Assembly (NCBI GenBank): GCA_913009685.1 | Contig: CAJVXP010000006.1 | Coordinates: 17,345-81,344 of the forward strand | Source: an uncultured Bacteroidota bacterium | GTDB lineage: Bacteria > Bacteroidota > Bacteroidia > Bacteroidales > F082 | DNA: 64,000 nt | Reading direction: 5' to 3' | Shown: in pieces, positions 52,722 through 55,391 of the stretch | How the letters are laid out: every line of letters starts with the position of its first letter | How positions within the stretch are numbered: the stretch's first letter is position 1 | Notes under the pieces: model-generated | What the model saw: only the letters and a program-made list of their open reading frames with translations | The model's database searches: none | What the model was told of the DNA's origin: nothing | Program-made: the position numbers and the translations under genes

Positions 52722-52900
52722 TTTTCTGAATTTGCTGCAAAAATAGAGGAATGACTAAAGAAAACAACGTCCGGACGAAATAGTTTTTAAACATCGTTTG
52801 TTGAAAACATTGAGATAATAAGGGATTAGGAAGGATTTCTCAAAAAAAAGCCACTGCTCAAACTGTCAGGGCTTTTATTTGAACGGGCGGTTCTCAAACC

Positions 52901-53357
52901 CTATTTTTCCTCTTTGGTGCTGATGCCAAATACCAGATATAAAGGGCAAAAACTTATAAATGCTGTCAGAAAAGGAACCAATGCAATGAGTCCCCACCAG
53001 CTTTTGTAGTAACCTGAGTTCGATATAAGATTTATCTCACAGAAAGCCAATAGCATATCAGATTTGTTGCTAAAAATCATGAAGTTATAGCGGGTTATAT
53101 CAAGTGATTTTTAGTGCAAAGATGGTGTGCTATTGGCTTTTCCACTAGTAAATTTCGATAATTAGCCCATATACTTCCTCAAATTTACTCGAATTATCCC
53201 GATAGTACTTCATAAATTTGAGTTGTCTATGAACTAATTATCTGAAACTGTGAGCAAAGCTTATATCGAACTCAGGTTAGTAATAACCCGGTGCGGCAAT
53301 CACAATACCCAAAATAATCCGGATAATTTTGTCTGTACTTCCAATATTCTGTTTCAT
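52901..53357 (-). pseudogene. DUF2892 (YgaP-like) small membrane protein gene interrupted by a 266-bp element
   Basis: MKQNIGSTDKIIRIILGIVIAAPGY (53357-53283) + YYKSWWGLIALVPFLTAFISFCPLYLVFGISTKEEK (53011-52901) join in frame. Confidence 0.85.
53012..53277. mobile_element. MITE-like non-coding element with 18-bp perfect TIRs and 5-bp TSD (TAGTA)
   Basis: ACCTGAGTTCGATATAAG at 53012-53029, reverse complement at 53260-53277; TAGTA at 53007-53011 and 53278-53282; no ORF. Confidence 0.9.
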
Positions 53358-54057: not shown

Positions 54058-54326
54058 ATACTTCAGGTTTTTTTCAAAAGTAATTATAATTTCTATATTC
54101 CTTATTTAAGGTATTGAATACTTCATAGGAAGTATTCCGCAAAAATAGTCTGTTAGCCGGAGCAGCATGTTACACAATTGTGGCAAAAACTTATATAATT
54201 TTCGGTTCATCACAAATAATGAGGATACTTGCTGATGCAAGTTAAAAGATTTTCAGTTTAACTTTAGGGGACTTCTAATAATTCATTCGCTAATTCCTGC
54301 TATTTTTGCCGTAAATTGAAACGCAA

Positions 54327-55391
54327 ATGGAACTGGAAAAGAGGATACGGGCTTTTGTACGGTTGGGGAGCGCACTGAGAGAGGTTTTCGGTGAGGAAGA
54401 GGCCTCCTTTACCCCGGCTGAAACGGCAAAAATGGAGCTGCTGCGTAAAGAAGCGGATGAAACTGCTTTTTATAATGCGTGGTTTACCAAAGATTTTGTT
54501 TACAGGGCTTTGCTGGCGCTGGGAGAAAGTATGCGGGAAGAGAAACTGCGAAAATGGTTGTCGGCTTACAATTTTGCCCCGGAGGCAATTTTTCAGCCGA
54601 AGACGGTGGGGGTAGTCATGGCGGGAAATGTGCCGGCAGTAGGTTTTCACGATTTTTTAAGTGTGCTTATAAGTGGCCATCGTATCCTGGCACGGCTCTC
54701 TTCGGATGACAAGAAACTGTTGCCGGCTATGGCAGAGGTGTTGATGGCCATTGCCCCTGAATTCAGTAATTACATCACATTTACCGAAGGGCAATTAAAA
54801 GCTTTTGATGCCATTATTGCCACCGGCAGTAACAATACTTCACGCTATTTTGAGTACTATTTCGGGAAATATCCAAATATCATCCGCAAAAACAGAAATG
54901 GTGTTGCTGTCCTTACGGGAAACGAAACGGAAGAGCAGCTGAAAGCTCTTGCTGCGGATGTTTTTCTTTATTTCGGGCTGGGTTGCCGGAATGTTGCCAA
55001 GTTGTTTGTTCCCGAAAACTATGTTTTTGAACCACTGTTGAAAGTTTTTGATGAATGGAAACAGGTAAACGAAAATCATAAGTATTTTAACAATTACGAA
55101 TACAACAAAGCCATTTTTCTTGTGAATGGCCACACGCACTTTGATACGGGCAATCTGTTGATAGTGGAGGATGATAAATTTGCTTCGCCGGTGAGTGTTT
55201 TGCATTATGAATATTATTCCGGTCCGGTTGCTTTGCGAAACTATTTAATGGCGAATAATACGCTGATACAATGTGTTGTTTCTGAGGCTGATTTTTTTAA
55301 AGATACTGTGCCTGTGGGAGAAAGCCAGTCGCCGGAGCTATGGAATTATGCCGATGGTGTGGATACGATGGCTTTTTTGCAAAGACTTTAA
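54327..55391 (+). CDS. Acyl-CoA reductase (LuxC-like)
   Basis: VGVVMAGNVPAVGFHDFLSVLISGH, FGLGCRNVAKLFVPENY. Confidence 0.85.
   Translation: MELEKRIRAFVRLGSALREVFGEEEASFTPAETAKMELLRKEADETAFYNAWFTKDFVYRALLALGESMREEKLRKWLSAYNFAPEAIFQPKTVGVVMAGNVPAVGFHDFLSVLISGHRILARLSSDDKKLLPAMAEVLMAIAPEFSNYITFTEGQLKAFDAIIATGSNNTSRYFEYYFGKYPNIIRKNRNGVAVLTGNETEEQLKALAADVFLYFGLGCRNVAKLFVPENYVFEPLLKVFDEWKQVNENHKYFNNYEYNKAIFLVNGHTHFDTGNLLIVEDDKFASPVSVLHYEYYSGPVALRNYLMANNTLIQCVVSEADFFKDTVPVGESQSPELWNYADGVDTMAFLQRL

Follow-up and report, generated by a model that had tools for sequence, protein, structure and literature searches.

Bacterial MITEs are usually regarded as dead transposon scraps, and a REPIN is a pair of inverted REP hairpins. 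Several described systems resemble the element reported here in part. MITECca01, an IS982-family MITE of Cardinium, is likewise a gene-less sequence of about 240 bp with IS982-type ends, present in many copies in a member of the Bacteroidota, but it has been presented as a derivative of its parental IS, without a reported structured core, and it is this description that sets it apart (PMC9769881). Transcripts of NEMIS/Correia and ERIC elements, which are also MITEs, form long stem-loops that act on mRNA processing or stability; these elements have a single stem-loop made from their paired ends and no internal arms (PMC2229807), whereas ours contains two facing copies of a hairpin with strand polarity. 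The CIR elements of Caulobacter do share two long hairpin arms and a linker and are the exception among repeat elements that otherwise lack arms, although terminal inverted repeats are not reported for them (PMC2229807). The present element has perfect 18-bp terminal repeats, together with a paired terminal stem, DDE-type duplications and homologous arms, and we therefore rejected membership of the CIR group. Because CIR is stated to be the sole two-armed exception, this combination of features falls outside the kinds reviewed in PMC2229807. REPs are 20 to 40 bp long and carry GTAG or CGTC tags (PMC3733652). REPINs resemble our element in being pairs of inverted hairpins, but they are short palindromes with no target duplications, in contrast to hairpins of about 95 nt inside DDE-type ends with 5-bp duplications, and we rejected this membership as well. 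In the literature searched, no relevant paper contained the element's exact end or core sequences.

The element lies in a 64,000-nucleotide stretch of DNA from an uncultured Bacteroidota bacterium, the whole of which we refer to as the window. Its parts, and the gene that it interrupts, are as follows.

52877 to 53338, minus strand: YgaP-like_TM gene split by the element (outer limits approximate; 61 aa with the flanks joined)
53007 to 53011, no strand: target site duplication TAGTA, left copy
53012 to 53277, plus strand: whole mobile element, gene-less, 266 bp
53012 to 53029, plus strand: left terminal inverted repeat, ACCTGAGTTCGATATAAG, the same as the end of IS982 copies in G027
53043 to 53140, plus strand: arm 1, hairpin module H, selected on the top strand
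53153 to 53247, minus strand: arm 2, second copy of hairpin module H, inverted, selected on the bottom strand
53260 to 53277, minus strand: right terminal inverted repeat, ACCTGAGTTCGATATAAG inverted
53278 to 53282, no strand: target site duplication TAGTA, right copy

The initial annotation had called this sequence a MITE-like element without an ORF that could fold as a single strand into a three-way shape, and both parts of that description held. The repeats that it named (the terminal inverted repeats, the target site duplication and the inner and outer stems of both arms) were all exact and in place, no reading frame of 60 aa lies within the element's limits, and copies are dispersed. When 276 nt were folded as a single strand, the DNA and RNA predictions agreed on a terminal stem plus two arms, at −65.4 kcal/mol (z −13.9) and −111 kcal/mol (z −13.5), respectively, and none of 200 shuffles reached the fold energy. 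The arms are longer than had been listed, about 98 nt for arm 1 and 95 nt for arm 2, and each contains conserved internal loops. Searching the Rfam covariance models matched no family, the only hit being a miRNA model at E 0.49 and 24 bits against a cut-off of 140. We rejected arm 2 as an intrinsic terminator, since it lacks a U-tract, and a kissing interaction between the two apical loops, judged by eye, received no support from the second element type described below.

When the element is deleted together with one TAGTA, the flanks form a continuous minus-strand frame of 61 aa that matches Pfam YgaP-like_TM, and a homologue of this gene is present in 11 of 11 other genomes of the genus (near full-length in 10). 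Since all of these relatives have kept the gene, the insertion is, judged by this comparison, recent and gene-breaking. Insertion sites in general were only mildly informative: among 50 examined, 21 were tandem, 12 convergent, 5 divergent and 4 in frame.

The element is not a single-copy sequence. A second full copy in the same genome, at C41, differs by one substitution and has its own duplication, TGATA, and the genome also holds a 77% copy at C18 and a partial copy at C9. We searched for the ends of the 266-bp element in 17 genomes and found the autonomous IS that the initial annotation had expected to share them. In G019, a 1041-bp element has the same ends (94% identity with those of our element) flanking an IS982-family transposase (NF033520, 272 bits), although its own flanks are without duplication, and in G027 the identical 18-bp end (18/18 bp) adjoins the transposase stop codon. 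Of 53 distinct elements that share these ends, 25 are flanked by identical 5-bp duplications, mostly TNNTA. AC ends (5'-AC) and direct repeats of variable length have been described for IS982 elements (PMC7335449), and the ACC ends and 5-bp duplication of our element agree with both properties. Given that the element's 18-bp end is found unchanged on IS982 copies of a related genome, an IS982-family transposase is most likely what mobilises the element. No IS982 transposase was found in the element's own genome (88% complete), and its genus yielded one weak fragment only; in the plasmids searched, the element was unmatched and IS982 relatives appeared at 60-80% identity only.

Similarity to IS982 is limited to the terminal ~19 bp, the core sharing only isolated 11-15-mers and no credible similarity, so the element is not a simple deletion derivative, as had been suspected from its elaborate interior. 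Many MITEs have only their ends in common with their mobiliser, and the mismatch of the core therefore lowers the case for a deletion derivative and not that for mobilisation by IS982. Complete arms are probably not needed for movement, because derivatives that lack them, one of 53 bp (duplication TATTA) and others of 111-112 bp at two sites with different duplications, have perfect target duplications. This runs counter to the suggestion that the structure serves as a necessary transposition substrate. Elsewhere, G039, from another family, carries about 220 copies of the IS982-type end (L098-L104, L149, L150), in elements that include forms of about 295 bp and shorter 111-112-bp derivatives. 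On viral contigs, a 1386-bp pair of IS982-like ends (L373:9824-11209) was rejected as a candidate because its interior is a DNA methyltransferase gene, and another pair of such ends lies 163 bp apart at L376:4223-4385; the H hairpin was found at neither locus.

Relatives of the element are present in its own genus and family; elsewhere in the order they were found in eleven further families, two of which gave weak matches (16 of 295 genomes). A pattern scan combined with covariance models added Draconibacterium, Prolixibacteraceae, Marinifilum and Flavobacteriaceae MAGs, and also a Chlorobiota MAG and the gammaproteobacterium Parashewanella. The scan of the genome contig collection returned 82 matches where about 8 were expected by chance, given the pattern and the size of the collection, and the matches in Rhizobium, Leptolyngbya and Cloacimonadota were rejected for want of a covariance-model match. 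At the Parashewanella locus L322, the pattern had missed a second element that has paired arms and a TATA duplication, and the Parashewanella match is thus not a selection artefact. In a phylum-wide sample of 396 genomes, matches occurred in the element's own genome only, so the family is patchy. Length is 258-269 bp in 22 of 34 clusters (clusters under 80% identity), and the H core occurs between end types other than those of IS982, with further end types in G157, the Chlorobiota MAG and Parashewanella.

Compensatory changes were the expected mark of stems that matter, and they were abundant. Among close relatives (n=21), 34 of 85 pairs had changed on both sides with pairing kept, and among distant elements (49 arm matches, one arm), 29 of 32 pairs had compensatory changes. 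In the distant arm alignment, 92% of cells were paired, as against 66% when shuffled and at most 48% when slid, although this figure leans towards structure, the alignment having been fitted to the model and a few of its rows being complementary-strand or arm 1 matches. The stems on either side of the internal loops vary, but the loops themselves remain constant. From these patterns, far above those of the shuffled and slid controls, we conclude that the structure is evidently under selection, as the initial annotation had proposed. One copy, in G008 (L084:299-576), has acquired an extra 13-bp palindrome at the tip of arm 2, where a hairpin is kept.

We then compared the arms with each other. 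In the window copy, arm 1 can be aligned with the reverse complement of arm 2 along most of its length, and a model made from arm 1 only recovers arm 2 from the opposite strand of many elements (E 1e-5 to 1e-9). By this homology, the arms represent a single hairpin of about 95 nt, H, present in two inverted copies. To count strand polarity, elements were folded on both strands with G.U forbidden, common pairs were kept and in-stem mismatches were tallied; G.T and A.C are one event read from opposite strands, and equal numbers are therefore expected if selection acts on the double strand. Across the 34 clusters under 80% identity, arm 1 had 54 GT and 6 AC mismatches on the top strand, arm 2 showed the reverse (GT 4, AC 28), and the terminal stem, which serves as an internal control, was near equal (GT 19, AC 12). 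Signs by cluster were 23:1 for arm 1, 17:1 for arm 2 and 10:5 for the terminal stem, and polarity by alignment column was 23:1 and 23:2 for the two arms, although clusters and columns have ancestry in common, so the p values are too small. Opposite signs, together with a neutral internal control, are hard to explain in other ways. In addition, RNA folding of 52 arms favoured H over its complement in 49, by about 10 kcal/mol. By its mismatches, each arm is under selection as a hairpin of one strand, the strand that reads inward from its own end, and the opposite bias argues for a hairpin read inward, as RNA or ssDNA, from either end.

With confidence a little better than even, we favour an IS982-mobilised MITE whose facing H copies act as cis RNA hairpins in read-through transcripts. 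An IS982-family DDE transposase would move the non-autonomous element in trans through its 18-bp ends, as the ends and duplications suggest, and the core between those ends, two inverted ~95-nt copies of H, is not IS982-derived. Selection keeps the base pairing of H on one strand, the top in arm 1 and the bottom in arm 2, as the compensation and the G.T/A.C bias indicate. Because the two copies face each other, transcripts entering from either side would make H first, and the design would work in both insertion orientations. H would most likely function in transcripts that read through from the gene or operon that was invaded. A host factor may bind or cleave it there, the nearest precedent being an RNase-type processing site, or H may act on the passing RNA polymerase; either way, it would control or soften the effect of the insertion. 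We infer this role on transcripts from precedent, mRNA processing or stability being a target of other bacterial MITEs (PMC2229807).

It is possible, though we find it doubtful, that H instead works as ssDNA, recognised on whichever strand is single by a hairpin-binding protein such as a HUH/REP-type enzyme or a replication-priming factor. This reading predicts the same strand polarity, places one H on each strand near that strand's 5' end, and agrees with the finding that, under DNA parameters too, H is more stable than the complementary sequence (42 of 46 arms). However, DDE-type ends and duplications require no ssDNA step, and among the non-canonical pairs of H, G.T and G.A predominate, G.G is infrequent and G.T runs such as GGG/TTT occur, all of which is better suited to RNA; because of this dominance of G.T and G.A, we prefer inward RNA over ssDNA.

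Template switching can yield double changes in long imperfect palindromes, and neutral quasipalindrome correction, in which replication copies one half of a hairpin onto the other without selection, could have produced the apparent compensation. We regard this as very improbable, since under such a process the internal loops, constant here, would be expected to disappear, and no G.T/A.C polarity that reverses between the arms should remain. Very improbable, too, is an ordinary MITE, a decayed IS982 with palindromes from chance inverted duplication and no role. Such an origin would account for the IS982-type ends, the duplications, the copy number and the derivatives without complete arms, but the covariation and strand bias already weigh against it, and it sits poorly with a match to IS982 confined to the ends, conserved internal loops amid strong covariation, near-constant length, and a core found with other ends and in other phyla. 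Least credible is the single folded three-way-junction RNA raised in the initial annotation: although a full-length fold occurs in nearly all copies, and two large arms in 31 of 39 representatives, one RNA should show the same strand bias in both arms, and the opposite bias argues against it.

Among distant bacteria the letters of the hairpin have changed but its folded shape has not, which suggests a role as RNA rather than junk. If H does act in read-through transcripts, the elements may form, as we tentatively propose, a distinct class of non-coding mobile element, in which a core of near-constant size with two facing functional RNA hairpins has taken up the ends of several transposase systems, spread between phyla and acts on transcripts entering from either side. 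Here a MITE core that does not derive from its mobiliser is maintained by base-pair compensation, with opposite strand polarity in its halves, and recurs between different ends in elements of Bacteroidota, of a Chlorobiota MAG and of a gammaproteobacterium. The role of such a core becomes directly testable by comparing disrupted and compensatory mutants, and a conserved hairpin is added that matches no Rfam family.

The same genome contains copies of a second element type, which has arm 2 in common with the 266-bp element but a different end type, GGGGACTTCTAATAATT, with 4-bp duplications such as TTAA. No transposase for the GGGGACTTCTAATAATT ends was found in the places examined: a 1.56-kb pair of these ends at C3 was rejected as an autonomous element, its interior being an ordinary gene; G014 held only elements of ~122 bp; and viral contigs held two isolated ends. 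A 425-bp element of the second type, at L005:1458-1882, has an extra hairpin in the arm 1 region, so the core can grow. In the window, a lone second-type end, AGGGGACTTCTAATAATT, lies at 54266-54283, just upstream of a gene at 54327, and is probably a relic.
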